From: Cytophagales bacterium
GTDB lineage: Bacteria > Bacteroidota > Bacteroidia > Cytophagales > Spirosomataceae
Reading direction: 5' to 3'
Length of the DNA stretch: 64,000 nt
NCBI GenBank assembly: GCA_013298025.1
Contig: JAAFJE010000010.1
Location: 124,001 to 188,000 of the forward strand
Part shown: positions 4,813 through 43,719 of the stretch, in pieces
Position numbering within the stretch: position 1 is the first letter of the stretch
Layout: each line of letters opens with the position of its first letter
Position numbers and translations under genes: made by a program
The notes under the pieces: generated by a model
Database searches by the model: none
What the model was told of the DNA's origin: nothing
What the model saw: the letters and a program-made list of their open reading frames with translations, nothing else

Positions 4813-4824
4813 CGGTGCTACAGT

Positions 4825-6451: not shown

Positions 6452-6452
6452 T

Positions 6453-8784: not shown

Positions 8785-8799
8785 CCCATATTTTCCCAT

Positions 8800-9702
8800 T
8801 TATTCATAAATCTTTTTTGCCACCCGAAAGGTATTGCAATGGGCCTCTACTATATCGGCAATGCGTGGCGAATAGCCTCCGCCCATACTTGCCACAATTG
8901 GAATATTGGCACGATAGGCTTGTTCAAAAACGAAGCTATCACGCTGATAACAGCCTTCTTTCGACACAGCCAATTTGCCGAGTTTATCTGTCGCCAAAAT
9001 ATCTACACCCGACACAAAAAACAGAAAATCGGGCTGTACTTGCTTCAATAATTTGGGTAATGTTTCTGTTAAAATCTGAAGATACGTTTCGTCAGCAGTA
9101 TAGGTAGGCAAGGCTATATCTACATCTGACTGCTCTTTGTGTAAGGGATAATTCTCTTCGCCGTGCATCGAAAACGTAAAAACCCTTGGCTCTTGCTGAA
9201 AAATCACAGCCGTGCCATTGCCTTGGTGGACATCGAGGTCGATAACCAAAATTTGCTTGGCTAATCCTTTGTCTAGTAAAAAGTTACTCGCAACAGCCAC
9301 GTCGTTGAGCAGACAAAAACCTTCGCCTTTGTCGGCGTAAGCATGGTGCGTACCGCCCGCTACATTGAAGGCAACGCCATGTTGGAGGGCAAATAAGGCA
9401 CAGTCTATTGTTCCTTGCGTAATAATGGTTTCTCGCAACACCAAGGCTTCGGTGAGCGGAAAACCGATTTTCCTTACCATTTTTGGGTCGAGGCTCAGGC
9501 TTTTGAGGGCGTTCCAATAAGCGGCGGTATGTGTTCGGAGAATCCACGACTCAGCCACTGGAATTGGCTCGAAGAAATGAGAAGGTTCAAAACTTCCTTC
9601 ATACAAAAGTTGCTCAGGAATGAGCTCATATTTGAGCATCGGAAAACGATGCCCTTCGGGTAATGGATGTTGGTAAATGGGACTATAGGCTATTTTTATC
9701 AT
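8800..9702 (-). CDS. Histone deacetylase-family (AcuC/HDAC-like) deacylase
   Basis: 300 residues, the usual length for bacterial class II-like HDAC homologues. Zn-site and charge-relay motifs are present: GGTHHAYADKGEGFCLLND (tandem His and the GFC loop), LVIDLDVHQGNGTA (Asp and His zinc ligands), and FFVSGVDILATDKLGKL (third Asp ligand). The family removes acetyl groups from proteins, polyamines or small amides in the cytoplasm. There is no signal peptide and no evident operon. The substrate cannot be read from sequence. Confidence 0.9.
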   Translation of the reverse strand: MIKIAYSPIYQHPLPEGHRFPMLKYELIPEQLLYEGSFEPSHFFEPIPVAESWILRTHTAAYWNALKSLSLDPKMVRKIGFPLTEALVLRETIITQGTIDCALFALQHGVAFNVAGGTHHAYADKGEGFCLLNDVAVASNFLLDKGLAKQILVIDLDVHQGNGTAVIFQQEPRVFTFSMHGEENYPLHKEQSDVDIALPTYTADETYLQILTETLPKLLKQVQPDFLFFVSGVDILATDKLGKLAVSKEGCYQRDSFVFEQAYRANIPIVASMGGGYSPRIADIVEAHCNTFRVAKKIYE

Positions 9703-9778
9703 TGTTTCAACTACAAATCACGAGACTTTTGTCAACGCACATCGCTTATTATTTGCCGAAAAATAGCATATTTTTTCC

Positions 9779-9826
9779 ATAAAAAAAACACCCAATTCAA
9801 GGCTCGAAAGCCCTGTATTGGGTGCT
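9779..9826 (-). terminator. Intrinsic terminator of the GH78 gene
   Basis: On the minus strand the hairpin CACCCAAT (9824-9817) / ATTGGGTG (9796-9789), with an inner GGCT/AGCC stem, is followed by eight T (9788-9781): a classical rho-independent terminator 20 bases past the rhamnosidase stop. Confidence 0.85.
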
Positions 9827-9844
9827 AAATACTATGCAAAAACG

Positions 9845-12538
9845 CTACTCGCAAATGAATGAATATTTACCAGAACCCAGTTCGAGCGTCCAGTCGTTGC
9901 CCTCTTGTTGGGCTTGTATGGCTACGCCATTTTCGGTAATTGATTGACCATTTTTTGTAGGAAAATACACCTTAGCCTTGGTATTAGCAGGGATTTCAAT
10001 GGTCAATTTTACTTGTTTTCCTTCTACTTGCCAAGCCGAAGCCAGCAATCCGTAAGGCGTTTGTAAACTGGCTTTAGCGAATGTTAAGCCTCCGCCCAAT
10101 TGGGGCTTGATGATGGCTTTTTTATACGCCACTTCGTCTTCTTGGGTATCAATTCCTGTAATTGTTCGGTACATCCAATCGCCTACTGCACCATAAGCGT
10201 AGTGGTTGAACGAAGTCATACTTGGGTCTTGGAAAGTGCTGTCGGGTTTCATCGAATCCCAACGCTCCCAAATGGTCGTAGCCCCATGCGATTTGATGGG
10301 ATATAACCAAGAAGGATAGGTATCTTGCAACAATAGTTTGTACGCTACGTCATTTTTACCAAAACGTGTCAACACAGGATTCAAAAATGGTGTTCCTAAA
10401 AAGCCTGTCGTGAGGTGATATTGATACGATTCGATATTTTTTACTAAACGTTCTACCGCTTGCGGACGCAACTCTTCGGGTAGCATATCGAATTGTAATG
10501 CCAGAATATAAGCGGTTTGGGTTTCTGAAATAAGCCTTCCTTTGGCAGTCATAAATTCATGTTGGAATGCTTTTTTCACACGAGCCAACAGTTGTTCATA
10601 CTCCGCCACATCGGCAGTTTTACCCAAAATTTTGGCCGATTTCAACATCAAGTCCACATTATAAGCAAAGAAGCACTGAGCTACCAAATAGTTATCAGTC
10701 ACAGCAGATTTTTGCCCAATCATTCCTTTCGAGTCGTCCACTCGATACGAAAGCCAATCGGCAAACTGAAAGCCTTTGTTCCATAAATCATGCTTTGCTA
10801 GGCTTCTCACGTGGTTGAGGTATTGTTGCATACTGGCATATTGGTTTTCCAATATTTGCTTATCGCCATACACCACATACATATTATACGGAATGATAAT
10901 GCCCGCATCCGACCAGCCTGCTGCTCCTATAAGTTTTCCAAACGTATTGTTTTTCAATACATTTGGTATTACATACGGAATTGCCCCGTCGGGTTCTTGG
11001 TCGGCACTTACGTCTTTGAGCCATTTAGCAAAAAACTGATTTACATTAAAATTAAAGGCTGCTGTGCGTGAAAAAACCTCGGCATCGCCCGTCCAACCCA
11101 AACGCTCGTCACGCTGCGGACAGTCGGTTGGCACGTCGAGGAAATTGCCTTTTTGTCCCCACTGGATATTCTTTTGTAATTGATTCACCATGGGGTTTGA
11201 ACATTCAAAACTACCCGTTGGGGTCATGTCCGAGTGCAAGGCAATCGCCGTAAAGTCATTCGGATTTACGTTGGCTACGCCTTCTACTTTGACATACCTA
11301 AAGCCGAAAAAGGTAAAATGCGGTTCTAAAATATCTTGTCCGCCACTGAGCGTATAAACCGCCTGAGCCTTCGCCGAACGTAAGTTTGTGAGGTACGGCA
11401 CGCCATATTTATCGAGCATTTCTACATGATACAAAGTAATTTTGTCGCCAGCTTTGCCCGTAGCTTTGACTTGCACCCAACCCACGAGGTTTTGTCCGAA
11501 ATCTAAAATCGTTTCTCCTTTCGGTGAGGTAAGCACTTTGACAGGCTTCAAGCTTTCGTGTTTACGGATGGGTTCGTTGATAGCCGCCGTAAGGTTATCG
11601 AATGGAAAGGGATTTTCTTTTACCGAAGTCCAATCATTATCTGCATAGGTTGGCGTTGCCCAAGCAGCTTGCCACTGACGCATATCTTGTTTTTCTCCAT
11701 CGTAAATTTCAGCCAATTGAATATAACTAGGCTTTGTTTTCCAAGAATTATCCGAAATAATGCTTTCGCTCGACCCGTCGGCATATTTGATTTCTAGTTG
11801 AAAAAGCAGGGCTGTTTCTTTGCCATAAATATTGATTTGTCTTTCCCAAGCCAAACGAGTTCTATACCAACCACTGCCCAACAGCACGCCAATGGCATTT
11901 TTTCCTTGGGTCAAAACATTGGTTACGTCATACACTTGGTACTGCAAATGCTTGTTGTAGCTTGTCCAGCCGGGTGTCAAGTAGGCATCGCCTATTCTTT
12001 TGCCATTGATTTGTATTTCGTACAACCCTCTGCTGGTGACAAAAGCCCTTGCCGATACCACTTTTTTAGGGTTCTCGAAGGTCTTTCTAAACATCGGAAC
12101 AATGCCATTGGTGGTATCTGCTGGCAAACCCGACGAAATCCAATGGGCTTTCCAATCGGTTTTCGACAACAATGCCGTGGCAAACGAAGCCGTTGCCCAA
12201 TCCGATACATTGCCGAGGTTGTCCCATACTTTTACTTGCCAAGTGTAGGTTGTATTCGACTGCAAATTTTTGCCCTGATACGGCACAAAAAGCGATTGTT
12301 CAGTGGTGATTTTTCCCGTAGTCCAAACCGTTTCTTTGCCTGCTTTCACTTGAATTTCATAGGCCGTTTGCTTTACATTACGTTTGTCGGAAGTCAATTG
12401 CCAACTAAAACGGGGGGCATTTGTGCCAATACCGATAGGACTAATCGCATTTTCAACTTTGAGTTGAGCCAGCTTGACCTGTGCCATACCAAGCCAAGTA
12501 TGACAAAGAAAAAGCAAACAGATAAGGCTTTTTTTCAT
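9845..12538 (-). CDS. GH78 alpha-L-rhamnosidase
   Basis: 897 residues with a signal peptide (1-19, ends GMAQ). The order matches bacterial GH78 enzymes: N-terminal fibronectin-like domain (LKVENAISPIGI, about 25-125), Bac_rhamnosid_N carbohydrate-binding-like part (about 150-330), the (alpha/alpha)6 catalytic barrel (about 440-790) with CPQRDERLGWTGDAEVF carrying the acidic catalytic cluster, and a C-terminal beta-sandwich. It hydrolyses terminal alpha-L-rhamnose from plant polysaccharides, probably in the periplasm. It is monocistronic and lies about 16 kb from the rhamnogalacturonan locus at 27400-33925, with which it fits functionally. Confidence 0.95.
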   Translation of the reverse strand: MKKSLICLLFLCHTWLGMAQVKLAQLKVENAISPIGIGTNAPRFSWQLTSDKRNVKQTAYEIQVKAGKETVWTTGKITTEQSLFVPYQGKNLQSNTTYTWQVKVWDNLGNVSDWATASFATALLSKTDWKAHWISSGLPADTTNGIVPMFRKTFENPKKVVSARAFVTSRGLYEIQINGKRIGDAYLTPGWTSYNKHLQYQVYDVTNVLTQGKNAIGVLLGSGWYRTRLAWERQINIYGKETALLFQLEIKYADGSSESIISDNSWKTKPSYIQLAEIYDGEKQDMRQWQAAWATPTYADNDWTSVKENPFPFDNLTAAINEPIRKHESLKPVKVLTSPKGETILDFGQNLVGWVQVKATGKAGDKITLYHVEMLDKYGVPYLTNLRSAKAQAVYTLSGGQDILEPHFTFFGFRYVKVEGVANVNPNDFTAIALHSDMTPTGSFECSNPMVNQLQKNIQWGQKGNFLDVPTDCPQRDERLGWTGDAEVFSRTAAFNFNVNQFFAKWLKDVSADQEPDGAIPYVIPNVLKNNTFGKLIGAAGWSDAGIIIPYNMYVVYGDKQILENQYASMQQYLNHVRSLAKHDLWNKGFQFADWLSYRVDDSKGMIGQKSAVTDNYLVAQCFFAYNVDLMLKSAKILGKTADVAEYEQLLARVKKAFQHEFMTAKGRLISETQTAYILALQFDMLPEELRPQAVERLVKNIESYQYHLTTGFLGTPFLNPVLTRFGKNDVAYKLLLQDTYPSWLYPIKSHGATTIWERWDSMKPDSTFQDPSMTSFNHYAYGAVGDWMYRTITGIDTQEDEVAYKKAIIKPQLGGGLTFAKASLQTPYGLLASAWQVEGKQVKLTIEIPANTKAKVYFPTKNGQSITENGVAIQAQQEGNDWTLELGSGKYSFICE

Positions 12539-12911
12539 AAATATTTATGTTAAAAATTGGATGAATGGCATATTTTAATAAAAATATATTATTATTTATT
12601 CGATATATACCATAACAAAACTAACGCTTTACAGAAACTCAACTATCCTTAACTGTGTCAGTTGTATTATTTTTACTGTATTTTTTTGTAAAAAAACAAT
12701 ATAAACTTTTTTATTTGCCAATGGAAACTTCATGATTTTTTATGCAAAAAAATCGTTCTTTACTTTTTTTAAGTATTAAAATCACCTTATACGCCTAACA
12801 TTTGCTAGATTTTTGTAGATTTGTTAGATTTTTTTAGTCAAAGTTTTGGTGACTTTGGTTAAATCAGCCATAATTACTCAAGTATTTTTCACTATTTTTT
12901 GCTACAACGCT
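12539..12911. other. Divergent promoter region of GH78 and parE, no gene seen
   Basis: 373 bases of very AT-rich spacer between two divergently read genes. An open frame on the plus strand continues upstream of the chosen parE start but begins with GTG and lacks family similarity. No strong inverted repeat or consensus -7/-33 pair could be fixed. Confidence 0.5.
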
Positions 12912-14789
12912 ATGTCCACAAATACAACAAACGAAGTGCAATATACCGAAGACAGCATTCGGTCGCTCGATTGGAAAGAACATATTCGTTTACGTCCGGG
13001 AATGTACATCGGTAAACTCGGCGACGGTTCTTCTGCCGACGATGGTATTTATGTGTTGGTCAAAGAAATTGTCGATAACGCTATCGACGAACACATGATG
13101 GGTCATGGCAAAAGTATTGATATAAAAATTACAGACCACCGTGTAGAGGTAAGAGATTACGGCAGGGGCATTCCGTTGGGCAAGGTCATCGACTGCGTAT
13201 CTAAAATCAATACCGGAGGTAAATACGATTCGGGGGCTTTTCAAAAATCGGTTGGCTTGAATGGCGTTGGTACAAAGGCAACCAATGCCCTTTCTAACTA
13301 TTTCAAGGTACAATCGTTCAGAGAAGGGAAAACCAAATGGGCCGAGTTTCAGCGTGGCGAACTCACCGCCGAGTCGGAAGGTGAGCCGCAAAGCAATGCC
13401 CGCAATGGTACAGCGATAGCTTTTGAACCCGACAATACTATCTTCAAAAATTACCATTTTATTCCGCAATACCTTGATAACCTTTTCTGGAATTATGCCT
13501 ACTTGAATGCTGGCTTGTCGATTAATTTCAACGGACAAAAGTATTTTTCTCAGAAAGGACTCTATGATTTATTGAGTAAAAAAACCAACGAAGAAGAAAA
13601 TCGTTACCCGATTATTCACCTCAAAGGAACTGATATTGAGATTGCTATGACGCATGGCAACCAGTATGGCGAAGAATATTATTCGTTTGTCAATGGGCAA
13701 AATACTACCCAAGGGGGTACGCATTTGCAGGCTTTCAGAGAAGCCTTGGTGCGTACTGTAAGAGATTTTTACAAAAAAGATTATGCTCCCGAAGACGTGC
13801 GTGCCAGTATTGTGGCAGCCGTGGCGATACGGGTGCAAGAACCAGTGTTTGAATCGCAAACCAAAACCAAATTGGGCTCTATGGCGATGTCGCCAGAGGC
13901 AAATGCCCAAACGGTGAGAAGTTTTGTGGGCGATTTTATCAAGACCGAACTAGACAATTTTTTACATAAAAACCCAAGCATTGCCGAAGCCTTCAAAAAA
14001 CGTATCGAGCAGTCGGAACGAGAACGCAAAGACATTGCGGGTATTAAAAAATTGGCAAATGAACGAGCTAAAAAGGCCAATTTGCACAACAAAAAACTGC
14101 GGGATTGTCGCATTCATTTGACCAACGAAAAATCGGACGACCGCTACGAAAGTATGTTGTTTATTACCGAAGGTGACTCGGCGAGTGGCTCAATTACAAA
14201 GTCGAGAAATGTGCAAACCCAAGCCGTATTTAGCCTCAGAGGTAAACCACTCAATTGCTATGGGCTGACCAAAAAGATTGTATATGAAAACGAAGAGTTC
14301 AACTTGCTCCAACACGCCCTCAACATTGAAGATGGCTTGGAAGGACTCCGTTACAACAAAATCATCATCGCCACCGATGCCGATGTGGACGGTATGCACA
14401 TTCGGTTGTTGATGATGACCTTTTTCTTGCAGTTTTTCCCTGATTTGGTACGAAATGGGCATTTGTTTATTTTAGAAACACCACTTTTTAGGGTACGCAA
14501 CAAGAAAGAAACCATTTATTGCTATTCCGACGAAGAGCGTATCAGGGCTATCGAGAAGCTAGGGCCTAAGCCCGAAATTACCCGATTCAAGGGTTTAGGC
14601 GAAATTTCGCCCGAAGAATTTGGGAAATTTATTGGCGATAATATTCGTTTAGAACCTGTAATTTTGGAAAAAGATACAACCATACCCAAAATCCTGAATT
14701 ATTATATGGGTAAAAATACACCTGACCGACAGAAATTTATCATCGAAAACTTGATTATTGAAAAAGACCCAGCCGAATTGGCAGCATAG
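12912..14789 (+). CDS. parE: DNA topoisomerase IV subunit B (type IIA topoisomerase ATPase subunit)
   Basis: 625 residues from ATG 12912 ([16 protein letters not shown]); the frame open from 12846 adds a hydrophobic stretch absent from the family. GHKL ATPase: [15 protein letters not shown] (Asn/Asp Mg site), [10 protein letters not shown] and [15 protein letters not shown]. Transducer and TOPRIM follow: [22 protein letters not shown] and [14 protein letters not shown]. Together with ParC it decatenates daughter chromosomes. The length and absence of the GyrB insert fit ParE or a Bacteroidota GyrB-like subunit; I prefer ParE. No parC follows: the next genes are a repeat element and pheA, so its partner is elsewhere. 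Confidence 0.9.
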
Positions 14790-19924: not shown

Positions 19925-20803
19925 ATGCAAACCATAACCTTTACTTGCGAAGTAATTACGCCGATGTTTCTGGCAGGAGCAGATGGCACAACCCCAGAAC
20001 TCCGCCCTGCCTCTATCAAGGGAGCTTTACGCTTTTGGTGGCGAGCGATGAATGGGCATTTATCAACTGATGATATGCGAAAGCTTGAAGGAGAGATATT
20101 TGGGAGTACTCAACAAAGGAGCAGTGTAATAATTAGAATTGAACAGGACTTGGAAAAAACTTCAAAAGAATCTCTATTACCACACAGAGGAGATTCTTCA
20201 ACTCCTTGTTTTCCCAAATCTGACGAAAGTTTTATTGTGAAGTTCTCTCTAACCAAAATTGAAAATGATTTCACGTTAGAATCAATTAAAGCCCTTTTTA
20301 TACTGACATCCATTTTAGGCGGCTTAGGTAAAAGAAGTAGAAGAGGTTTTGGTTCTTTTAGAATAACTAATATAAATAATCAAGCCTATTCAGAAGAGCA
20401 AAAGATAGAAAATGTATTGCCTTATATGAACGCACTTGTTGTGAAAAATTCAGCTAATGAAGATAAGTTTAAAATTGATATGAACAGAATCCTACTAAAT
20501 GGTAAAAGTTCATACAAGGATTTAGGCGAATTTCCTTATGTGACAGAAATTAAGATAGGAACACAGGTTAAAACAGTATCAGAAATAGGAAATTCCACTC
20601 ATAAGGTAATGTCAAGTGATGCTTTTCTTTATAAAAGTACTGTCGGTTCTGGAAATCCTCGCTTTGCATCTCCTATTTACATTTCTATATTAAAAGATAA
20701 TTTGCCAATTATTACAACACTTAAAACAGTATCACATGGTGATAAAAAATGGAGTTTACAAACAGATTTAAAAAAACAGATTTTAAAAAACGAAATTTTA
20801 TGA
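19925..20803 (+). CDS. cmr1: Type III-B CRISPR RAMP protein Cmr1
   Basis: 292 residues. The opening is diagnostic of Cmr1: TCEVITPMFLAGADGTTPELR, then ASIKGALRFWWRAMNG, and a glycine-rich RAMP loop GGLGKRSRRGFGSF about residues 134-147. Cmr1 sits at one end of the Cmr ribonucleoprotein, near the 3' end of the guide. It is the first gene of a tight seven-gene operon; its stop overlaps the cmr2 start (ATGA at 20800-20803). From about 20100 the sequence is clearly more AT-rich than the upstream metabolic genes, suggesting acquisition by transfer. Confidence 0.9.
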   Translation: MQTITFTCEVITPMFLAGADGTTPELRPASIKGALRFWWRAMNGHLSTDDMRKLEGEIFGSTQQRSSVIIRIEQDLEKTSKESLLPHRGDSSTPCFPKSDESFIVKFSLTKIENDFTLESIKALFILTSILGGLGKRSRRGFGSFRITNINNQAYSEEQKIENVLPYMNALVVKNSANEDKFKIDMNRILLNGKSSYKDLGEFPYVTEIKIGTQVKTVSEIGNSTHKVMSSDAFLYKSTVGSGNPRFASPIYISILKDNLPIITTLKTVSHGDKKWSLQTDLKKQILKNEIL

Positions 20804-22515
20804 GCAATAACAAAACATATCTATTCCTACTAACCATTGGCCCCGTACAATCGTTTATTGCTCAGGCAAGGAAAACGCAAGATTTGTATGCAGGGAGTCA
20901 GTTACTATCTGATTTAATTGGTTTTGCAATGAACCAAACCCAAGAATCGGGCGAAATTATATTCCCATTTTTAGACGCAAAATCGAAACCCAACAGATTT
21001 GTAGCCAAAATTACTTGTCAAGATGTTAAGGTATTCGGCAATAATTTACAAGTCAAAGTAAAAGAGGAACTAAATCGAATAGCTAAAGATGCTTTGGGAA
21101 AATGGTTTGAAGTAGCAAGTTATCAGATAGACGATTTCTTAGAAACGTACTGGACTGCCATTATTTATGACGAAAATAAAAAGTATAACGAACAGTATAA
21201 AGAACTTGAACGAACACTTGGAGGAATAAAAAACTATAGAGTTTTTAAACAACTTTCATTGCCCGAACAAGGACGAAAATGTTCTGTAAATGGCTTCTAT
21301 GATGCTTTATTTTATAGGAAATTAGATAGAGAAACACAACAAGATATTACCTTTTTGAGAGAACAAAGACATCTCAATAATAATGCAATTATTGTTGATA
21401 ATGATACAATGGTCGGTTTAGGTATAATCCAAAAAGGAGAAGGCATTTGTGGCTTAACGCTTCTAAAAAGAAGATATAAAGAAAACGCATACACATTTCC
21501 TTCAACTGCCAATATAGCACTGTTACATATACTTAATAATCCCGTTGTCAAAGACAGTGGAACACTTACGCCTTTATTAATTTGTGATGGTGCAAGCGAG
21601 AATACAATTGATAATTTTAATGGACAGTTGCTGTTTAGTGAAAATATTAATAGTGAATATTTTAAGAAACAGGACATCAAATGTAGAGAAGACGCATTCA
21701 GCGATTGTTTTGAGAGTTTTAAAAAAGTAGTCGAACAAGAGAATTTGAAATTTCTTAAATATTATGCTGTGATTGTATTTGATGCGGATGATATGGGTAA
21801 AAAACTGTCTGCCTGCGATTCAATTGAAAAACACAAAGAGTTATCACGCAAGTTGTCTGAGTATGCAAAATGTGCAAGAGAATATATTGATGAAGGGCGA
21901 GGAAAAACAATTTATGCAGGTGGTGACGACTTTATGGGGCTTCTTAACTTGACAACTTTATTTGAATCAATCCAAAAGTTAAGAGAAACGTTTGAAGAAC
22001 AATTTCAGGCAGAACAGCTAACATTTTCAGCAGGGATAGCTATTGCTCATTACAAAGCACCACTTGGCGAAGTGTTGAACTATGCAAGAAAAATGGAGCA
22101 TAAAGCCAAAGAACAAGATGGGAAAAACGCATTTGGAATTGCTGTTATGAAACAATCAGGAGAAATTCATGAAACTATTTTACCTTGGGTAAACTCATTG
22201 AAGGAATACCGATGGTATCCTTCAATATTGAAACTGATACAAGAAAGTTTGAAAGATAAGATTAGTCCTAGTTTTATCAAAACACTAAATGAAGAAATTA
22301 GCATTTGGGACAATAAATCATCTGATTTCGCAGAAATAACTTCACACGAAATAGTAAGACTTTTGTCGAGAGCTAATAAGTTTGCTGATAAAAAGTTATT
22401 AGAAACAATTGCAGAGGATATTCTATCACTCTACAATGACTCAAACTTTAAGGATAAGACAGACTATTTTACAAATGCTTTAAACATTGCAGACTTCATT
22501 AATAGAAAATTCTAA
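20800..22515 (+). CDS. cmr2: Type III-B Cas10 (Cmr2), cyclase-competent, no HD domain
   Basis: 571 residues from ATG 20800, chosen over an upstream in-frame ATG at 20749 because it gives the standard start MSNNKTYLFLLTIGPVQSFI and an ATGA overlap with cmr1. Cas10 landmarks: GPVQSFIAQARKTQDLYAGS, first palm motif IVFDADDMGKK, and the cyclase motif GGDD at 374-377 (YAGGDDFMG). There is no N-terminal HD nuclease. It should make cyclic oligoadenylates on target RNA binding but lack direct ssDNA cleavage. A CARF effector encoded three genes on is the likely receiver of the signal. Confidence 0.93.
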   Translation: MSNNKTYLFLLTIGPVQSFIAQARKTQDLYAGSQLLSDLIGFAMNQTQESGEIIFPFLDAKSKPNRFVAKITCQDVKVFGNNLQVKVKEELNRIAKDALGKWFEVASYQIDDFLETYWTAIIYDENKKYNEQYKELERTLGGIKNYRVFKQLSLPEQGRKCSVNGFYDALFYRKLDRETQQDITFLREQRHLNNNAIIVDNDTMVGLGIIQKGEGICGLTLLKRRYKENAYTFPSTANIALLHILNNPVVKDSGTLTPLLICDGASENTIDNFNGQLLFSENINSEYFKKQDIKCREDAFSDCFESFKKVVEQENLKFLKYYAVIVFDADDMGKKLSACDSIEKHKELSRKLSEYAKCAREYIDEGRGKTIYAGGDDFMGLLNLTTLFESIQKLRETFEEQFQAEQLTFSAGIAIAHYKAPLGEVLNYARKMEHKAKEQDGKNAFGIAVMKQSGEIHETILPWVNSLKEYRWYPSILKLIQESLKDKISPSFIKTLNEEISIWDNKSSDFAEITSHEIVRLLSRANKFADKKLLETIAEDILSLYNDSNFKDKTDYFTNALNIADFINRKF

Positions 22516-22517
22516 CT

Positions 22518-23612
22518 ATGCAAACAATTCATATACAAGCATCTGATACTCTTTTTTTTAGAGATGCAAAGCCTTTTGAACTATCAGAAGAGTCATGGGC
22601 GAGTAGTATGTTCCCTAATATATCACCAAGCACATTTTTAGGTGCAATTAGAACGGCATTTGGTACACAGAATAATTTAGATGTTACAAAAATTAAAGAT
22701 AGCACATTAGAAGCTACTATTAAAAATTTTGGTATCACTGTCGGAAATGAATTATCTGGTGAAATATATCCAACATTTGCTATGCCTCGTGACTTGATTG
22801 GAAATGGAGGCAAAACGAAAGGGTTACAAATAGTTGACAATACATTCTCAAGTAACCCTTTTAAAAAAGTTTTACTCAATGATACATCTGAGAAGTCGGA
22901 AGATTTAGAAGATTTTAGAATGTCTTTAGAAGATTTTCAGGCATACTTAAATGGAACAAAAGTTTTTTCTTATGATAAAAATAAAACCCTATTTCATTTA
23001 GATGATTTTTGTGTAATCGAGTCTAAAATAGGCATCGGTAGAGATAAGTCTAAAAATGTAACAAGAGAAAGTGCTTTATATAGAGCAGGAATGAATAGAA
23101 TGGAAGGTAAAAAAGGGAAACTGCATTTTTTTGCTACATTGAATAACATCATTTTAGAAAAAGAAGGTATATTAAAACTCGGAGGTGAAAATAAAACAGC
23201 TCTTTATCAAGAAGGAATTTTAGTAGATGTAGATTGTCCAACGGTTGATAATAATACATTTTTATTTAAACTCTATCTTTTCACTCCTGCTATTTTTCAA
23301 AACGGTTCAATACCTGACTTTATTAATTCTCAGTCTTGTGAAGGAGAGATAAATGGTATAGAAGTACAGCTTTTAACTTCTGCTATTGGTCGTTTTATAC
23401 CTTACGGAGGTTTTGATTTAGACAAGAATTGTCCAAAAGCCTTGTATAAAGCTGTCCCCGCTGGAAGTGTTTACTATTTTGCCTTGAAGAATAAAAATCA
23501 ACCTCAAAAGCAAATAGAACAGTTAATTCACTTTTTTAATACCGAGAAAAACTCTATTAGTACTGAGAGGAAAAATGAAGGTTTTGGAATCGTGTACGTA
23601 GCAAACATTTAA
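22518..23612 (+). CDS. cmr3: Type III-B RAMP protein Cmr3
   Basis: 364 residues. The Cmr3 signature DTLFFRDAKPFELSEESWAS is at the N-terminus, followed by PSTFLGAIRTAFG. The C-terminus carries RFIPYGGFDLD and a RAMP glycine loop (NEGFGIVYVANI). Cmr3 caps the 5' handle of the crRNA next to Cas10. It starts 2 bases after the cmr2 stop, so is co-translated. Confidence 0.9.
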   Translation: MQTIHIQASDTLFFRDAKPFELSEESWASSMFPNISPSTFLGAIRTAFGTQNNLDVTKIKDSTLEATIKNFGITVGNELSGEIYPTFAMPRDLIGNGGKTKGLQIVDNTFSSNPFKKVLLNDTSEKSEDLEDFRMSLEDFQAYLNGTKVFSYDKNKTLFHLDDFCVIESKIGIGRDKSKNVTRESALYRAGMNRMEGKKGKLHFFATLNNIILEKEGILKLGGENKTALYQEGILVDVDCPTVDNNTFLFKLYLFTPAIFQNGSIPDFINSQSCEGEINGIEVQLLTSAIGRFIPYGGFDLDKNCPKALYKAVPAGSVYYFALKNKNQPQKQIEQLIHFFNTEKNSISTERKNEGFGIVYVANI

Positions 23613-23619
23613 AGTAGAT

Positions 23620-24951
23620 ATGAAAAAGACGATTATAGTCACAGTAGGAACATCTCTTTGTGAAAACAATGAAGTAAATGCAACAGGGCTTAAAGGATGT
23701 TTGTATAATGAAATCCACAAGCATTTAAAGCAGCAGCATTTAACCCGTTGTAAAAAAGACCTTTTATATTTAATTGAAAATAAACAAGATAATACCATTT
23801 GTGCAGAACTCCAAAGTATTGCCAAAATTAAAGAAAGTAATGTTGATATTGAGATTTACCTCATTTGTACTGATACAATACTATCTCCTTTATGTGCCGA
23901 ATTTATTGCTAAAAGACTGATAAACAACGGCATTTCTGTAAAGTTTGAGTATAATAGCCTCCATATTATTGAAGGTCTTATTGTTGATGGAGCAAATGCT
24001 TCTACAACTTTTGAAGAAAAAGGATTTCCTAATTTAATTCAAATAATAAAGGATATAGAAAAACAGGCAAGTGCGGAAAATCGCCCAATTCTTAATATTT
24101 CAGGAGGTTATAAAGCTTTGATTCCAGTAATGACAATTATGGGGCAACTTTACAACATGGAAATTAACTACATGTACGAGGATGCAGAAGAACTTATCAA
24201 AATTAATAGTTTACCTATCAATTTTGATTGGAATGAGGGAGAATTCTATTTAGAATACTTGAAAAAGAGTGGGTTAAATGAAATTAAACAGTTTTCGGAG
24301 AAATTTTCTGAAATATTAGCTACACTTCGTGGTCTGGGTCTTATTCAAAAAGACAAGTATGAATTAACTGTTATTGGGAACTTGTATAAAGAATATCTTA
24401 TAGGAATTGATACATCACAGAAAAACAATATTAACGGATACCTAGTAGAACTAAAAGTATATAAGCATTTTATGGAAAATCATTCTTTAGATTATATAGA
24501 AATTCGACAAGGAAAAAGTTTTTATTGGGATACAAATGAAAAAAGCAAATTCTATGAGCAAGCTCAATTTGATAACGATGATACTAAGGAACAAAAAATA
24601 GAAATTGATATTTGGCTTAAAACAAATGATAATTTGGAGCTATGGTGTGAAGTAAAGTCACTTTCAGAAACAGGTCTGAAAAAAGCAAAAAAACAAACAT
24701 CAGCCAAGTTAGATTTTATCAGGTATACTCAATATGCTTCAATTGAAGAGTTTAGATTAATTGTTTACAAGTTACCTAAAACCAATATTATGAAATACGA
24801 GCGAAAGCTAAATGAAATTAAAATGCTTTTTCAAGATAGTGAAATTCAATTCAAGCTATTTGTAATAGAGCTTCCTGAAAATAAGAGAGGGCAAATTGAA
24901 CCTAAAAAAATATTTGAAAACAGTCTTACAATTACTCCATTTGAGCTATAA
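23620..24951 (+). CDS. CARF - PD-(D/E)xK nuclease, candidate cOA-activated effector
   Basis: 443 residues. Residues 1-200 form a CARF sensor of the APE2256-like type: IIVTVGTSLCENN at the first strand and LNISGGYKALIPVMTIMGQL at 158-177, the ligand-loop GGYK motif. Residues about 215-262 look like a winged helix. Residues about 270-385 form a restriction-endonuclease-like fold: VELKVYKHF helix, Asp330 (IEIDIW), then Glu344-x-Lys346 (WCEVKSL). Such proteins are switched on by cyclic oligoadenylate from Cas10 and cut DNA or RNA. It lies between cmr3 and cmr4 in the same operon, with gaps of 7 and 12 bases, so it belongs to this system. Family and target specificity are inference. Confidence 0.85.
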   Translation: MKKTIIVTVGTSLCENNEVNATGLKGCLYNEIHKHLKQQHLTRCKKDLLYLIENKQDNTICAELQSIAKIKESNVDIEIYLICTDTILSPLCAEFIAKRLINNGISVKFEYNSLHIIEGLIVDGANASTTFEEKGFPNLIQIIKDIEKQASAENRPILNISGGYKALIPVMTIMGQLYNMEINYMYEDAEELIKINSLPINFDWNEGEFYLEYLKKSGLNEIKQFSEKFSEILATLRGLGLIQKDKYELTVIGNLYKEYLIGIDTSQKNNINGYLVELKVYKHFMENHSLDYIEIRQGKSFYWDTNEKSKFYEQAQFDNDDTKEQKIEIDIWLKTNDNLELWCEVKSLSETGLKKAKKQTSAKLDFIRYTQYASIEEFRLIVYKLPKTNIMKYERKLNEIKMLFQDSEIQFKLFVIELPENKRGQIEPKKIFENSLTITPFEL

Positions 24952-24963
24952 AATCATTCAACT

Positions 24964-25905
24964 ATGTACAAAACATCAGAACCCCTATTTCTTTTTTGTG
25001 AAACACCACTCCATGCTGGTAGTGGTAACGATTTAGGCATTATTGATATGCCCATCCAACGTGAACGCCATACAGGTTTTCCTAAAATAGAAAGTTCAAG
25101 CTTAAAAGGAAGTTTAAGAGAAGCTTTTGAAAGGACAGCTACTAATTTAGTTACACAAGAAAAAATCCATCGTGTATTTGGCTTTGACAATACCAATGCT
25201 GATAAATCTTTAACCACCGAAAACGGTGCTTTTGCTAACAAAAAAGACCAAGATTTTTCAGGTTGTATTGCATTTACTGATGCCAGAATTTTACTTTTTC
25301 CAGTAAAATCTCATACGGGTGTTTTTGCATGGATTACCTGTCCAAGAGTTGTTGGTCGCTTTATTTCCGAAATGAAAGAATATTGTAAATTATCTGATGC
25401 TGAATTAGCAACACTTCAAGTTAATACAACAGGCTCAGGTTCAAAAGTATGCAAAGAGGGTTCAGTTGGTTTAGAAGAATATATTTTTGAAGGAATAACA
25501 GAAGAACAAAATGTTACAGCCTTTGGTAAGTGGATAGCAAGAAAGCTTTTCCCTAATCTCAATAATAATTATTGGTCAACCAAGCTTAAAACCGATATTG
25601 TTGTTTTGTCCGATGATGATTTTGCCGATTTTGTACAACATTCTACCGAAGTAATTACGAGAACAAAAATAAATAATGAAACAGGAACGGTTTCGGATAC
25701 TGCCTTATTTACAGAGGAATATCTTCCTGCGGAAAGCTTGATGTATTCAATCGTAATGTTTGCACCAGAATTTAAGCTTAATGGTATGAAAGAAAATGAG
25801 GTACAACAATTCTATACAGATACACTTCCTGAGATTTTTCAAATTGGAGGTAATGCTACATTAGGCAAAGGAATTGTAAGAACTAAACCTAAAAAACAAG
25901 CATAA
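24964..25905 (+). CDS. cmr4: Type III-B backbone RNase Cmr4
   Basis: 313 residues. The Cmr4 signature is complete: ETPLHAGSGNDLGIIDMPIQ, then HTGFPKIESSSLKGSLREAF. Asp28 (IIDMPIQRE) matches the Asp that cuts target RNA every six nucleotides in known Cmr4 proteins, so the target-RNA cleavage activity looks intact. The C-terminus has GGNATLGKGIVR. Several copies form the helical backbone of the complex. Confidence 0.93.
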   Translation: MYKTSEPLFLFCETPLHAGSGNDLGIIDMPIQRERHTGFPKIESSSLKGSLREAFERTATNLVTQEKIHRVFGFDNTNADKSLTTENGAFANKKDQDFSGCIAFTDARILLFPVKSHTGVFAWITCPRVVGRFISEMKEYCKLSDAELATLQVNTTGSGSKVCKEGSVGLEEYIFEGITEEQNVTAFGKWIARKLFPNLNNNYWSTKLKTDIVVLSDDDFADFVQHSTEVITRTKINNETGTVSDTALFTEEYLPAESLMYSIVMFAPEFKLNGMKENEVQQFYTDTLPEIFQIGGNATLGKGIVRTKPKKQA

Positions 25906-25909
25906 TACA

Positions 25910-26305
25910 ATGGCACAAGAAATAAAACGCAAAGCAATTTCTCAGGAAAGAGCAAAATTTGCTTGGTTATATGCCCAAGAAAGTAAAAATGATAATAAAG
26001 TTTCGGAAAAATATAAATCTCATGTTCGAGAGTTTCCTATGCTGGTTTTAACCAATGGTTTGGTTAACGCTGTAGCATTTGCTTATGAAAAAGGAAATAT
26101 TGGGAGAAATAGAACTTCTGGTGATATAGGTTGGGAATTGGTTTATAATCATTTAGAGAAATGGCTTAAAGATGACTGTGGTATGAACTTGATACAAGCT
26201 GATGGTTTGATTCAAGAACTCTTAAAATGTGAACCTAATAGGCTTCGTATGTTAAGTAATGAAACTATTTCTCTTTTCACTTGGCTAAAACGCTTTGTTT
26301 CATAG
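25910..26305 (+). CDS. cmr5: Type III-B small subunit Cmr5
   Basis: 131 residues, all-helical, starting 4 bases after cmr4. KSHVREFPMLVLTNGLVNAVAFAYEK is typical of Cmr5 (the buried helix that contacts the target strand). Together with Cmr4 it forms the minor filament. No catalytic residues are expected. Confidence 0.9.
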   Translation: MAQEIKRKAISQERAKFAWLYAQESKNDNKVSEKYKSHVREFPMLVLTNGLVNAVAFAYEKGNIGRNRTSGDIGWELVYNHLEKWLKDDCGMNLIQADGLIQELLKCEPNRLRMLSNETISLFTWLKRFVS

Positions 26306-26307
26306 AT

Positions 26308-27198
26308 ATGGAAAATTTCAACTTGTTACTCAATAAAGATGAGCATATTCTAAATAAGAAAACTTTAGAGTTTACTCCATTATCACGAAAAGATAAGAAC
26401 AAAAAAGAAGTTGGTAGAAAAGACCAACTAGAAACGTTCAGACATTGGGATATAATTAAGTGGACTGCTTTAAAGGAAAGGCAGATTAACCACGCCAAAT
26501 TACTATGTCCTGTTACAAGCGTACCTTTAGAGCTTTCGCCTGATTATAGATTAATTGTTGGGTTGGGTAATCCTTCTATTTACGAAACATCTATCACATT
26601 ACATCACATTTACGGCTTTCCATACATTCCTGCCAGTGCAATAAAAGGCGTTTTACGAAACTATGTAATCAATGAGTTTTTTCAACTCAATGATGAAGAA
26701 TTAGCAAAAGTTAAAAAGGAAGACATTGGTCAAGCAAAAGAGCAAAAAGCACTTAAATCAAGTATAGATTTCTGTCATATATTTGGCTGTCCTGAAAACT
26801 CAGCCAAGAAAAACAAAGATGATAAACAGTTAGCATTTATTGGAGATATTATTTTCTTTGATAGTTTTCCTACCCAAAAGCCTAACTTAGAAATGGATGT
26901 AATGACGGTTCATTATCCAAAATATTATGGAGAAGGAACACTTCCGCCAGCAGATTGGCAACAACCTAATCCCATACCATTTTTAACGCTTAAAAATAAT
27001 CCAGCAAAGAATAGAATTAATAAATTCCAGTTTATCATAGGGTTAAGAAATGGAGCAGAAAATAGAGACATTTCTATTGGTAATTATAAAGGGAAATTAG
27101 TAGAGATTACGGCTTCGTTACTCTTTCAAGCCCTCACCAACCACGGCATTGGTGCAAAAACCGCCGTGGGTTATGGATATTTCGGAGAACAGAAATAA
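26308..27198 (+). CDS. cmr6: Type III-B RAMP protein Cmr6
   Basis: 296 residues from ATG 26308, two bases after the cmr5 stop; the open frame back to 26281 begins with TTG inside cmr5 and is rejected. Cmr6 features: NPSIYETSITLHHIYGFPYIP, ASAIKGVLRNYV, the cysteine/His segment HIFGCPE, and a C-terminal RAMP glycine loop GIGAKTAVGYG. It occupies the guide 3' end of the complex next to Cmr1. It is the last gene of the operon and is followed by a terminator. Confidence 0.92.
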   Translation: MENFNLLLNKDEHILNKKTLEFTPLSRKDKNKKEVGRKDQLETFRHWDIIKWTALKERQINHAKLLCPVTSVPLELSPDYRLIVGLGNPSIYETSITLHHIYGFPYIPASAIKGVLRNYVINEFFQLNDEELAKVKKEDIGQAKEQKALKSSIDFCHIFGCPENSAKKNKDDKQLAFIGDIIFFDSFPTQKPNLEMDVMTVHYPKYYGEGTLPPADWQQPNPIPFLTLKNNPAKNRINKFQFIIGLRNGAENRDISIGNYKGKLVEITASLLFQALTNHGIGAKTAVGYGYFGEQK

Positions 27199-39391: not shown

Positions 39392-39643
39392 TTATATATT
39401 TTTACCTGCATTCGCAATCAAGAGGTACACCAAGTCCACTTTTATACCATACTCTTTCAGGTAGGCACAAGCCGAAATATACTCTCCACGTATTACTAAG
39501 TTTTCAGTTCGTTCTCCTACTGTTTCAAAAGGTTCTACTTCGTAAAAGGCATACCTCTTTTAATGCGGTCGTAAACCTTGTCGTTTTCACGGCAACGCAA
39601 CACTCACTGTGTTCGGGTAATACGGAATGTATTTTATGGGCAT
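39392..39643 (-). pseudogene. Frameshifted relic of a site-specific DNA methyltransferase
   Basis: On the minus strand ATG 39643 begins MPIKYIPYYPNTVS, then the frame breaks; a second frame continues RENDKVYDRIKRGMPF, and after a one-base loss (TTTTACGAAG) a third reads EVEPFETVGERTENLVIRG and YISACAYLKEYGIKVDLVY before leaving family sequence and stopping at 39392. These pieces match the N-terminus of large adenine-type DNA methyltransferases just before their IDPP (DPPY) catalytic motif, which is missing. The relic ATG lies 6 bases behind the ptuB stop, so it once was the next gene of that operon. Confidence 0.75.
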
Positions 39644-39649
39644 TGTTGC

Positions 39650-40462
39650 TTAGTTGTTATTGGTTCTAAAATAATTCAAAAAATATTTGTACTTTATTAA
39701 AGTTTGCCAGTTAGAAAGGGTTTTGAAAGAATCAATTATCTTTCCATCTTTAGATAGTTTTGATGGATTTACATCTAAGTTCAAGGCAATGATTTCTCTT
39801 ATTTCTGTTTCGTTTGTAACGTTCATTATTTCATCTTCTGTAACATCAGACTTTGCAAATAAGAACCAAATACGTCTAATGTTTTTTAGCAAATCCTTAT
39901 TCAGATTTAAGGGATTAATTAAACGATTATCTATTTCGTCGTTTACATAGTACAGCGTACCATCATTCAGATAAGCTATACTATTGGGCATCAAGTTAAA
40001 TGGAGGAACGAAATCGTTTCCTCGGCTACGATTACAACATAGGTATTCCGATGTATCAATAATTCTACCATTACAAGAGGCGACAATATTATGGTAAGCA
40101 ATATGGTGAGGAAATGGAGGCGTTGCTTGTTGCGTAGCTGAATCTCTAAAACTACGCTGTAAAACAATATTTTGCGCTAAAATATTACTGTAATCAAAAT
40201 AACGTTGCAATTCTGTGTTATCAATATTTTGTGCTCTTGGAATGATATGTTCCAATTCAGTGTTTCGTGAATTATCTATTTGTCTGCAACAATAACAACA
40301 AATGTTATTTTGTTCTTCCAAACAATACGTTCTATATGCTGAAACATCTATATCATTATATCCAATATTAATATATCTATTAGCTTCTGGCTGCCATTGT
40401 CCATTTATAAAATTAGAAACGTAATCAATCGCAGCTTGATTGTCTTTATTTACAGTTATCAT
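39650..40462 (-). CDS. ptuB: Septu defence HNH nuclease PtuB
   Basis: 270 residues. HNH signature: NNICCYCCRQIDNS with two CxxC-type cysteine pairs, NTELEHIIPRAQ with the catalytic His, and CNRSRGNDFVPPFNLMP as third element, so cysteine-clamped HNH. Septu is a two-gene anti-phage system of an ATPase (PtuA) and this nuclease; the assignment rests on the pairing with the OLD-like ATPase encoded 6 bases upstream. AT-rich composition differs from flanks. Expected to cleave DNA when PtuA is released from nucleotide inhibition. Confidence 0.88.
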   Translation of the reverse strand: MITVNKDNQAAIDYVSNFINGQWQPEANRYINIGYNDIDVSAYRTYCLEEQNNICCYCCRQIDNSRNTELEHIIPRAQNIDNTELQRYFDYSNILAQNIVLQRSFRDSATQQATPPFPHHIAYHNIVASCNGRIIDTSEYLCCNRSRGNDFVPPFNLMPNSIAYLNDGTLYYVNDEIDNRLINPLNLNKDLLKNIRRIWFLFAKSDVTEDEIMNVTNETEIREIIALNLDVNPSKLSKDGKIIDSFKTLSNWQTLIKYKYFLNYFRTNNN

Positions 40463-40468
40463 GGCATA

Positions 40469-41830
40469 CTATTTTTTATTCATTTCGATACGACTCTCAA
40501 TTTCTTTTTGAATGTAGTGGTTGTTCTCACCAACAATAGCAGATAGCTCATTTTTAAGCTTTTCAGCATCATCAACCCTATTTCTACTTGCCAAAATAAC
40601 AATCGAATCAATGAGGTTATCAATAGTAGATGCTCTGTATTTAGCACCCATTACTTCCATTAAACTAGTGGTATAATCTATTCCAAAAACATTTTCGATA
40701 TCTTCGTTCCAGTACTCTGTACCCGCATTTTTAAGTTTAACAATTTTATTTTCTAAGCCATCAGCTTTTAGATTGCTTATTACCAAAGGCGAATGTGTAC
40801 TTATGATAAATTGCATATTAGGAAACGTTTTTTTAAATCGTTGAATAACCTCTTGTTGAAGCGAAGGATGAAGGTGTAGTTCAATTTCATCAATCAACAC
40901 CACTCCTTGTGGCTCTTGCTCTCCGTTTAACACATAACTACGATAAGCAATGTCAAACACAATAGAAAGCAAACGATTGTACCCTTGAGGTAGGTGTTCA
41001 AAAAAAATTTCTCTTTTATCTTGAAATAGAAATTTAATAGAGATAGCATTTTCTTCTCTTAATGGACGTTCAAGCACTACTTTATGAATAGTTAACTCAC
41101 TATTGATAAATTCAAAATTGGGGTTTAAAGCTGAGGTAAACAACTTTAAACGTTCGTCTATGAAAGCTATTTCCTTTCTTTCTTTCAGGGTGTCTTCTTC
41201 TGAATTTTTAAAATCGTTTATTTTGGAGTATTGAGAAATATACCTATTCTGCCATATTTCAGCACAGTTAGCCTCTGCATCCCACTGATAATAAGCAAAT
41301 GCTCGTGGGATAATACCACTTTTTAATACACTTTTTGCATAAGAACCTATATTGATTTTTTTATGTGGATATGAATCAGAAAAAAAGGCAAAAATAGGTA
41401 GTTTTGAGTTTTTTAAGTCAGCATTATAGCTCCTTGTAAAATCTAAAAAGGCATCTCGATACCTTGTTTCAAGCAGTCTTCCATCTGCACTATTTTTAAC
41501 AATAGCCCAATCAAATTCATTATTATTGATGTTGGCTTTGCATTCAATAGTTATAGGATAACTATAAAACTTGGTACTGCTATCAATAAAAGCATCAGTT
41601 TTAGACAAATTTGCCAAATGCAGGTCAGGGGTATTACCAAGCAATTCGAGTTTTTCATTTTTATCCTTATACTTTGAGAATACAAAGCTCATAGCAGTTT
41701 TTATTGAGTTCATCAAAGTAGTTTTACCTGTTCCATTTTTCCCAAAAAGCACAGTTGTTTTTTCTGCGAATGAAATTTCATATTGCTTAAAACATCTAAA
41801 GTTTTCTAAGGCTATACTATTAATCTTCAT
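40469..41830 (-). CDS. ptuA: Septu defence AAA/OLD-like ATPase PtuA
   Basis: 453 residues. ABC/OLD-type ATPase: IALENFRCFKQYEISF (AAA_15/23 start), Walker A FGKNGTGKTTLM (30-41), signature region FEHLPQGYNRLLSIVF, Walker B GVVLIDEIELHLHPSLQ, and switch His in FIISTHSPLVISN. No TOPRIM follows; the C-terminus is a helical nuclease-binding tail. Same strand and 6 bases before ptuB. Forms the Septu complex that senses phage infection. Confidence 0.88.
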   Translation of the reverse strand: MKINSIALENFRCFKQYEISFAEKTTVLFGKNGTGKTTLMNSIKTAMSFVFSKYKDKNEKLELLGNTPDLHLANLSKTDAFIDSSTKFYSYPITIECKANINNNEFDWAIVKNSADGRLLETRYRDAFLDFTRSYNADLKNSKLPIFAFFSDSYPHKKINIGSYAKSVLKSGIIPRAFAYYQWDAEANCAEIWQNRYISQYSKINDFKNSEEDTLKERKEIAFIDERLKLFTSALNPNFEFINSELTIHKVVLERPLREENAISIKFLFQDKREIFFEHLPQGYNRLLSIVFDIAYRSYVLNGEQEPQGVVLIDEIELHLHPSLQQEVIQRFKKTFPNMQFIISTHSPLVISNLKADGLENKIVKLKNAGTEYWNEDIENVFGIDYTTSLMEVMGAKYRASTIDNLIDSIVILASRNRVDDAEKLKNELSAIVGENNHYIQKEIESRIEMNKK

Positions 41831-41913
41831 ATCTTAATCGTTAAAAAAAACTGGTCTAACTTACTATTTAATTTGATGATGTGTTGTATCAGCATTGTCT
41901 TTATTCAACCAAA

Positions 41914-42120
41914 TCAAAGCCGTTTCTTCGGGGCGACCTCCCACTTTTGCTTTATCCACTTGGCGTAAACACCTGCAAGATGTTTGTAACACCATATTTT
42001 TTCGTTTCTCTCAAACTTACTGATGATAGCTTGGTCAATATCCAATTCTGTAGCAACCTGCCTTCGAAATAGTTCTTTGCTTTCCCTCGCTAGTTTTGTT
42101 AAGTCTCTAAATGTGTTCAC
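41914..42120 (-). pseudogene. Truncated XRE-type HTH controller
   Basis: 68 codons from a GTG at 42120. Residues 1-40 are an HTH_3 domain with the pattern LRRQVATELDIDQAIISKFE of restriction-modification controller proteins, which normally continue (GERKPTKEQV...) through the second half of the domain. Here the frame runs into unrelated sequence (WCYKHLAGVYAKWIKQKW) and stops. Another frame over 42010-41880 gives ...GGRPEETALIWLNKD, which may be the end of a different lost gene. I infer a decayed controller, upstream of ptuA in the same direction. Confidence 0.55.
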
Positions 42121-42134
42121 TAGACAATATATAT

Positions 42135-42153
42135 TTTGACAAAATTAGTCAAA
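42135..42153. promoter_or_regulatory. Palindromic operator TTTGAC-N7-GTCAAA
   Basis: TTTGAC (42135-42140), seven bases, GTCAAA (42148-42153), 15 bases before the GTG of the HTH relic. This size and place fit autoregulation by the HTH controller. Confidence 0.5.
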
Positions 42154-42323: not shown

Positions 42324-42331
42324 TCAAGTAA
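42324..42331. repeat. Target-site duplication TCAAGTAA, left copy (right copy 43613-43620)
   Basis: Identical 8-base words flank the two terminal inverted repeats of the IS element. Confidence 0.8.
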
Positions 42332-43612
42332 CTGACCTTTCGCAGGTAAAATATTATGATTTTACAATAAAAAGATTAATAAAGGCAAAAACCTGCTTAA
42401 ATTTCATTTTTCAAACCTCAAACATAGCAAAATGAAAAACCCACAATTAATGGACATTTATAGTGATTACCTGATAACATCGTTTGGATTAGTAACGTCA
42501 ACAGGGTTATCTAAAATGCTTGATAATGGGTATAGTCATGATCAAATCAGTAGGTTTTTGGCACAACGAGAGTTTGACCAACAAGACTACTGGAAAATGG
42601 TTAAAAAAATCATACGCAAAATCGAAAGCATTGATTATGGGATTTTGGCAATTGATGATACAATAGAAGAAAAACCCTACACCACAGAAAATGATATAAT
42701 CTGTTGGCATTGGGATCATTCTAAGAATTGTAACATAAAGGGTATCAACATTTTAAATTTTTTGTTTACTCGTAAATTAGATGACGGACAAGAAGTTTCG
42801 ATTCCTGTCGCATTTGAAGTAGTAAAAAAAACAGAACAATATCTTGATACAAAAGAAAATATAGTCAAACGCCGTAGTCCCATCACTAAAAACGAAATGC
42901 TTTTGAATAGGCTTCGTGTCTTAACCCAACTCAATAAAGTTCAATACAAGTATGTTGTTTGGGACACTTGGTTTTCTTCAAAGGAAAATTTTGAATGTGT
43001 TCACCATGAGTTCAAAAAACACTTTGTATGTGCCCTAAAAAGCAATAGGACAGTTGCAATATCCGAGCAAGCAAAACGTCAAGGTAAATTCCTAAAAGTA
43101 GAACAGTTAGACTTACAACCTAATCAGACACGGACAGTATGGCTTAAAGGAATGGATTTCCCAATCCTTTTAGTCAAACAGGTCTTTACAAACCAAGATG
43201 GTTCGACTGGAGCGTTGTATATCGTTACCAACGATTTAGATTTATCTTATGACGACATCACTACAATCTATAAAAGACGATGGAACGTAGAGTCCTTCCA
43301 CAAATCGCTCAAAAGCAATGTTAATTTAGAAAATTCACCAACAAAGTATGAAACAACTCAGGCTAATCACATTTTTGCATCAATGATTGCCTTTTGTAAA
43401 CTGGAGTTGCTCAAGTTTAAAGTTGGCTGTAACCATTTTGCTCTAAAAGCTAAACTATACATCAAAGCTCTTCAAGCTTCCTATTCAGAATTACAAAAAT
43501 TCAAGCAAACAGATGTTTTTAGAATTGATACTAAACACGATGCCGCCCTTTTGGAGGCTTCCCATTAATACAATTTTTTAATCTTCAAAATTTTTGACCT
43601 GCGAAAGGTCAG
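42332..43612 (+). mobile_element. IS4-superfamily insertion sequence with TIR and 8-bp target duplication
   Basis: 16-base terminal inverted repeats CTGACCTTTCGCAGGT (42332-42347) and ACCTGCGAAAGGTCAG (43597-43612), total 1281 bp. Flanks carry the direct repeat TCAAGTAA (42324-42331 and 43613-43620), a target-site duplication. One intact transposase gene fills it. Both ends and the duplication are intact, so the insertion looks recent. Confidence 0.9.
42432..43568 (+). CDS. IS4-type DDE transposase
   Basis: 378 residues. First Asp in GILAIDDTIEEKPY, second in YVVWDTWFSSKENF, and the Glu block RRWNVESFHKSLKSN (the Y-x2-R-W-x-E signature typical of IS4-like transposases). Length and all three catalytic acids look complete. 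It sits wholly inside the terminal repeats at 42332-43612. Confidence 0.92.
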   Translation: MKNPQLMDIYSDYLITSFGLVTSTGLSKMLDNGYSHDQISRFLAQREFDQQDYWKMVKKIIRKIESIDYGILAIDDTIEEKPYTTENDIICWHWDHSKNCNIKGINILNFLFTRKLDDGQEVSIPVAFEVVKKTEQYLDTKENIVKRRSPITKNEMLLNRLRVLTQLNKVQYKYVVWDTWFSSKENFECVHHEFKKHFVCALKSNRTVAISEQAKRQGKFLKVEQLDLQPNQTRTVWLKGMDFPILLVKQVFTNQDGSTGALYIVTNDLDLSYDDITTIYKRRWNVESFHKSLKSNVNLENSPTKYETTQANHIFASMIAFCKLELLKFKVGCNHFALKAKLYIKALQASYSELQKFKQTDVFRIDTKHDAALLEASH

Positions 43613-43719
43613 TCAAGTAATAAATGTATCCGTTTAAGGTTGTAAAAAAAACGCTTTCGGAGATCGCTGTCAAAAGTTACGGCATTCTTGAAACTCTTCA
43701 TCAACAAATCCATAACCAA

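Follow-up and report, generated by a model that had tools for sequence, protein, structure and literature searches.

Results

The window, a 64,000-nucleotide stretch of DNA from a Cytophagales bacterium, carries on its minus strand a palindrome, the relic of an HTH controller gene, two relics of a restriction gene (res), the genes ptuA and ptuB of a Septu pair, and the relic of a DNA methylase gene (mod). A preliminary description of this DNA had given the order as HTH relic, ptuA, ptuB and, 6 bases on, a methyltransferase relic. That order is borne out, and the two res relics are an addition to it, as only the HTH and methyltransferase relics had been named. The features are listed below as they follow one another along the minus strand, with L numbers denoting loci of relatives.

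42331..43613, plus strand: IS701-type insertion sequence, a neighbor outside the system (IS701 transposase 2.3e-91, inverted ends, CAAGTA on both sides)
42135..42153, no strand assigned: palindrome TTTGAC-N7-GTCAAA, putative operator of the old restriction operon (exact; also exact in L033, 8948-8966)
41998..42120, minus strand: XRE/HTH controller relic, first 41 codons with a GTG start, fused to res via a deletion (25/41 residues identical to the L033 HTH protein)
41886..42000, minus strand: res relic, helicase-motif piece (MVLQTSCRCLRQV...) (best tblastn match L016 res, E 5.5e-15; aligned as DNA with L033 res)
41831..41902, minus strand: res relic, 3′ end with stop codon and 3-base spacer, abutting the ptuA ATG (51-base L033 stretch, score 63)
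40469..41830, minus strand: ptuA, Septu ATPase, 453 aa, intact (best PADLOC PtuA match 6.7e-63)
39650..40462, minus strand: ptuB, Septu HNH nuclease, 270 aa, intact (best PADLOC PtuB match 4.8e-22)
39425..39643, minus strand: mod relic (DNA methylase), an N-terminal part carrying an internal deletion and a frameshift, remainder gone (tblastn best E 1e-15; aligned as DNA with mod of L022 and of L033)

The Septu genes and their surroundings

The reading frames of ptuA and ptuB are open, without a lesion over ~2.2 kb, and are separated by 6 bases. PtuA matches Pfam AAA_15 (5.3e-28), and its residues K36, D314 and E315 are invariant in an alignment of five sequences, the window included, from which L022 (partial) and L024 (ptuA split into two ORFs) were omitted. 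PtuB is a distant protein for which no PDB chain was found at E 0.1, and an AlphaFold model built from seven sequences (mean pLDDT 54) was too poor for use. Its residues C55, C58, H72 and N125 are invariant among seven aligned sequences, the window again included. L027, with a shortened ORF and ~30% identity, was left out of both this alignment and the identity table. The putative HNH roles of H72 and N125 are assigned by motif, and the match to Pfam HNH_4 (0.0059) falls under the cut-off. PADLOC models of the type I-A retron ATPase and HNH proteins also match the two products (2.4e-52 and 1.6e-13), and the NCBIfam model for PtuA of the retron Ec78 type gives the window protein 174 bits, far below its 500-bit cut-off. 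Reverse transcriptase is absent from the stretch between operator and ptuA, because that stretch is made up of the relics of HTH and res.

The GC content of the block is 31-35%, against 39-44% in intervals fully outside it. The IS701-type element lies ~180 bases upstream of the operator and, as judged by the 6-base CAAGTA direct repeat that flanks it, is a clean insertion; the other neighbor of the locus is a gene for a TauE-type exporter. At a separate place in the window (19925-27198, plus strand) are type III-B CRISPR effector genes encoding Cmr2/Cas10, Cmr3, three RAMP proteins and Cas_APE2256, of a ring-nuclease/Csm6-like family.

Relics of a restriction operon

Using six res and mod proteins from intact relatives as tblastn queries against the window, we placed the res helicase piece at 42001-41867 and mod at 39643-39422. 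The longer piece of the mod relic is ~83% identical to L022 mod DNA (163/197 bases, a figure derived from the alignment score). Measured against the intact operon of L033, counterparts remain for ~123/294 bases of HTH, ~170/2892 of res and ~219/2013 of mod, or ~512/5199 bases (~10%) of the host operon when the DNA alignments are summed. A working res and mod of a type III restriction-modification system are thus not present in the window, and no further copy was found in its own genome of either mod (E 1e-6 and 1e-15) or res (E 1e-5). The deletion within res is bounded by the near-repeats AAAGACAATGC and AAAGACATTGC, and a small deletion in mod by two near-copies of ATTACCCNAACAC. The res relic at 41886-42000 also contains ~16 bases that are absent from L033 at that position.

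By itself the HTH relic is weak (HTH_3 E 0.012, under the curated cut-off). Its alignment with the intact 97-aa XRE protein of L033 (8981-9274) scores 127, against 27-40 with the XRE proteins encoded before ptuA in L025, L023 and L026. We considered the relic as a regulator of Septu and rejected it on these scores; its sequence fits a restriction controller, unlike the XRE genes before ptuA in L023, L025 and L026. The proposal that the flanks derive from a restriction-modification locus holds, with 25/41 HTH residues shared with L033 and a mod match at 1e-15.

The palindrome was looked for in the window and in L033. It is exact and the sole match when one mismatch or fewer is allowed; since 0.40 matches are expected by chance, it would not be striking alone. 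It lies 14 bases from the HTH start in the window and L033 alike, and the promoter regions around it can be aligned between the two, so the earlier statement that the operator remains is upheld at the same site. The promoter before ptuAB may resemble those of Bacteroidota.

The position of Septu can be given to the base. The 21 bases running through the ptuA ATG are identical to the res end, stop codon, spacer and mod ATG of L033. Just upstream, a run of T is longer by two in the window, among other minor differences, and the 51-base stretch of the L033 res end still scores 63 against the window, where 40 shuffled versions reach 32 at most. By this alignment the ptuA ATG occupies the place of the mod ATG in L033. 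With the res 3′ end before ptuA and the mod relic beginning 6 bases after the ptuB stop, ptuAB is seated between res and mod. The suggestion that Septu had replaced the core of a restriction system is rejected, as the window still has both the end of res and the start of mod; the core was lost around ptuAB.

Could the flanking relics be chance deletion joints whose history is not shared with Septu? They are short, and the palindrome taken alone is near chance level. We find this hardly credible when the relics match at 1e-15 (mod) and 5.5e-15 (res), 21 bases are identical at the ptuA start and the operator spacing is conserved, and L022 and L033, described below, already contradict it.

Intact restriction operons in relatives

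In L033, a contig of genome G857 from the same class as the window genome, intact genes for HTH (97 aa, an HTH_3/XRE controller), res (963 aa) and mod (670 aa) stand in a row, with SIR2-like and HerA genes after them. Two res-mod pairs of one family lie on this contig (3420-16973), the second having the XRE controller and SIR2-HerA behind it. Judged from ORF starts, an XRE gene stands ahead of res in 1/7 readable loci (L011, L012, L014, L017, two in L033, L042), so this controller is not universal in the res-mod family. Complete res proteins measure 925-996 aa, and at unfilled junctions their genes end 2-12 bases ahead of the mod ORF.

Part of the mod relic, used as a query, matched 8 of 194 genomes of the order, namely the window's own and seven with an open mod; a later mod query found 9 of 380, the same set plus G260, which is alone in its genus in the collection. 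Among 325 genomes of the class two were found, the window's own and G857 (two copies), and G857 was the only one to match among the seven genomes of its genus. Plasmids yielded 21 records that match 44-60% of the mod protein with 31-42% identity. A mod alignment found 70 loci in viral contigs, of which the two full-length ones (L042 and L043) were read and the 68 partial relatives (24-39% identity) were excluded from our counts.

Relatives of the Septu pair

An alignment of two ptuB sequences, run against the species-genome collection, returned seven loci (L021-L027). L022, a contig of a Chitinophagales MAG, carries the end of ptuA, then ptuB and, 2 bases after ptuB, the start of an open mod of 620 aa. 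The link between ptuAB and mod is therefore real, and the proposed search for ptuAB-methyltransferase operons in relatives succeeded, with an open mod on an independent contig. When the seven loci were searched with res and mod by tblastn (E 0.05), L022 alone matched, so that mod is linked in 1/7 ptuB relatives, or 2/8 counting the window. No res is visible in L022 because the contig begins inside ptuA, and searches elsewhere in this MAG for the ptuA start (E 1e-10) and for res (E 1e-5) found neither. The possibility raised beforehand, that such relics are never linked to Septu in relatives, is contradicted by this one locus.

PtuB proteins of the window, L021 and L022 share 57-60% mutual identity and are 42-48% identical to those of L023-L026. 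L021, from a Saprospiraceae MAG, encodes the PtuB closest to that of the window (60%) and has PDDEXK_3 and RhuM genes ahead of ptuAB, without mod. In L023, L025 and L026 ptuA is preceded by an XRE gene of another kind (seen by Pfam scan in L023 and L026), and the ORF list shows none for L024 and L027. As for HTH genes in front, an HTH-res-mod operon with the same operator exists intact in L033; the XRE genes before ptuA in L023, L025 and L026 differ from the window HTH. That Septu had grown out of a restriction locus is unsupported, ptuAB occurring without res or mod in 6/7 loci.

The narrow gap between ptuB and mod in two lineages (2-6 bases, with PtuB 57% identical) might suggest that ptuAB and mod work together as a single system, a Septu that has a methylase of its own, to which res and HTH are mere neighbors. 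This seems to us very improbable, as the closest PtuB (L021) has no mod beside it and in 12/12 other open-mod loci read, mod follows res, without ptuAB. It is also conceivable, if unlikely, that Septu was a late arrival in an already dead restriction locus and that its seat between relics is a coincidence. The heavy decay of the host relics next to a whole ptuAB would agree with such a history, as would the lack of res and mod at most ptuB relatives; however, the start of ptuA coincides exactly with the position of the mod start codon, the res end is unbroken save for small changes, and L022 has the same joint of ptuB to mod with mod open.

Further searches for the Septu genes yielded little. 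At E 1e-10, ptuB was found among 390 genomes of the order in the window's own genome alone; at E 1e-5, among 395 genomes of the phylum, in its own genome and G610, the same two that ptuA found among 296 genomes of the phylum at E 1e-40. In plasmids ptuB had no match at E 1e-5 and ptuA matched nine records at 24-26% identity (E 1e-20), and in viral contigs no ptuB was confirmed among 1 and 354 pattern stretches.

The res-mod junction and the space behind mod

Thirteen loci have the res end and the mod start both visible, the window and 12 with an open mod; L022 stands outside this count. The junction is empty in nine (L011, L012, L013, L014, L015, both in L033, L042 and L043) and filled in four. 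Besides Septu in the window, it holds genes for a Polbeta-type nucleotidyltransferase and PDDEXK_3 in L016 (1878-2589), Polbeta-type and HepT-like genes in L112 (110-919; genome G260, of the family of the window genome), and a GIY-YIG gene in L017. Behind mod, on the same strand, L033 has SIR2-HerA at 4 bases, L014 a Tiamat-type TmtA (PADLOC; 1850 aa, 8403-13955) at 25 bases, L011 a truncated AAA gene at 57 bases and L043 a TIR gene at 175 bases. In L042, an IMG/VR contig from the virus collection, res-mod is followed 7 bases on by Hachiman HamA-HamB, also on the same strand (3128-11519).

Discussion

Septu in this genome is best understood as a guest that took its place between res and mod of an HTH-res-mod operon, which then decayed around an intact ptuAB; we give this reading a probability of about 0.8. 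The sequence itself establishes the order of the genes, where exactly Septu sits, that ptuAB is intact, the relics and the relatives. In favor of a guest, relics of three host genes lie in the right order around ptuAB, 3/12 loci with an open mod hold other genes at this junction, and the block differs in GC content from the DNA outside it. Against it, no intact HTH-res-ptuAB-mod operon was found among the relatives, the L022 contig is cut off within ptuA, only 1/7 ptuB relatives has mod, the nearest of them (L021) has none, an XRE controller precedes res in only 1/7 readable loci, and 9/13 junctions are empty.

We propose that a type III-like restriction operon under HTH control took up a ptuA-ptuB cassette exactly between the res stop and the mod start, at a time when res would still have been intact, and that ptuA and ptuB became two added cistrons of the host operon. 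The restriction system would then have decayed through a number of deletions affecting HTH, res and mod, while ptuAB stayed whole behind the old operator and promoter and a short leader of relic sequence. Today that promoter, together with its operator, is probably what drives ptuAB. Repression is probably gone, because the controller has lost more than half its length, and the loss of most of the repressor would have freed ptuAB from the old control. On the analogy of E. coli Septu, the PtuA ATPase and the PtuB HNH protein may perform the same kind of act, though not necessarily on the same target, and ptuAB would have a Septu function that includes phage defense.

The locus offers an example of a defense cassette outliving its carrier restriction operon, with a docking point known to the base, and the conserved operator provides a direct test of how the guest is controlled. 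The res-mod slot and the space behind mod, which in single relatives holds SIR2-HerA, Tiamat-type or Hachiman genes, are searchable places for defense genes. One may speculate further that backup effectors dock at the res-mod junction as a rule of this restriction family, so that HTH, res, a guest (Septu, MNT-HEPN or other) and mod would form a layered unit under one repressor and the guest would stop the cell upon restriction failure. The window would then be an end state, with the guest holding the promoter of its dead host; we regard this extension as tentative and rather doubtful.

How does the locus compare with known systems? The window pair resembles type I Septu (PtuA-PtuB) in its adjoining ATPase and HNH genes, PADLOC matches and retained motif residues, and differs from it in lying amid what is left of a restriction operon. 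In E. coli, one Septu requires the Walker motifs of PtuA and the H-N-H residues of PtuB, and infection leads to cleavage of tRNA-Tyr, according to the available part of one report (PMC13096335). PtuA-PtuB is also the effector pair of type I-A retrons. These retrons (Septu type II) have a reverse transcriptase in front, as the accessible portion of another report describes (PMC8565338). The window differs from such retrons in having no reverse transcriptase between operator and ptuA.

The host operon is akin to type III restriction-modification systems. L011 res, the one res scanned, matches ResIII (2.5e-8), with a RE_endonuc match under the cut-off and no PADLOC match at E 0.001. L022 mod, the one mod scanned, matches N6_N4_Mtase (4.4e-44) and PADLOC MTase_III (2.8e-47), with a type II methylase model scoring slightly above the type III model. 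Type III systems usually have the order mod-res, whereas the relatives of this operon have res-mod.

A known parallel is DarTG2, which is embedded between hsdS and hsdR and controlled by the RptR repressor, in a report whose available part also cites Septu in Hma (PMC12255303); Hma itself was discovered via its frequent neighborhood with Septu, in what is accessible of that account (PMC8565338). As far as the available part of the DarTG2 report goes, both cases have a guest defense cassette between two host genes, behind a small repressor gene and a palindrome (PMC12255303). The present case differs from what is described there in its type III-like, dead host, its Septu guest, its XRE regulator, and a 19-base palindrome in place of TAGCTA repeats. 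The HTH_3/XRE type of the L033 controller and this conserved palindrome speak against control by RptR. While the host is dead in the window, mod is open in L022, with res off the contig. A 2024 preprint by Payne et al. reportedly deals with embedded defenses and may already contain Septu inside such operons. Among the literature matches listed in our limited searches there was no account of Septu with type III restriction-modification, and the limited searches make any novelty provisional. Genes embedded in restriction operons are already known, and we provisionally place Septu in a type III-like host among them as a new variant, not a new system.
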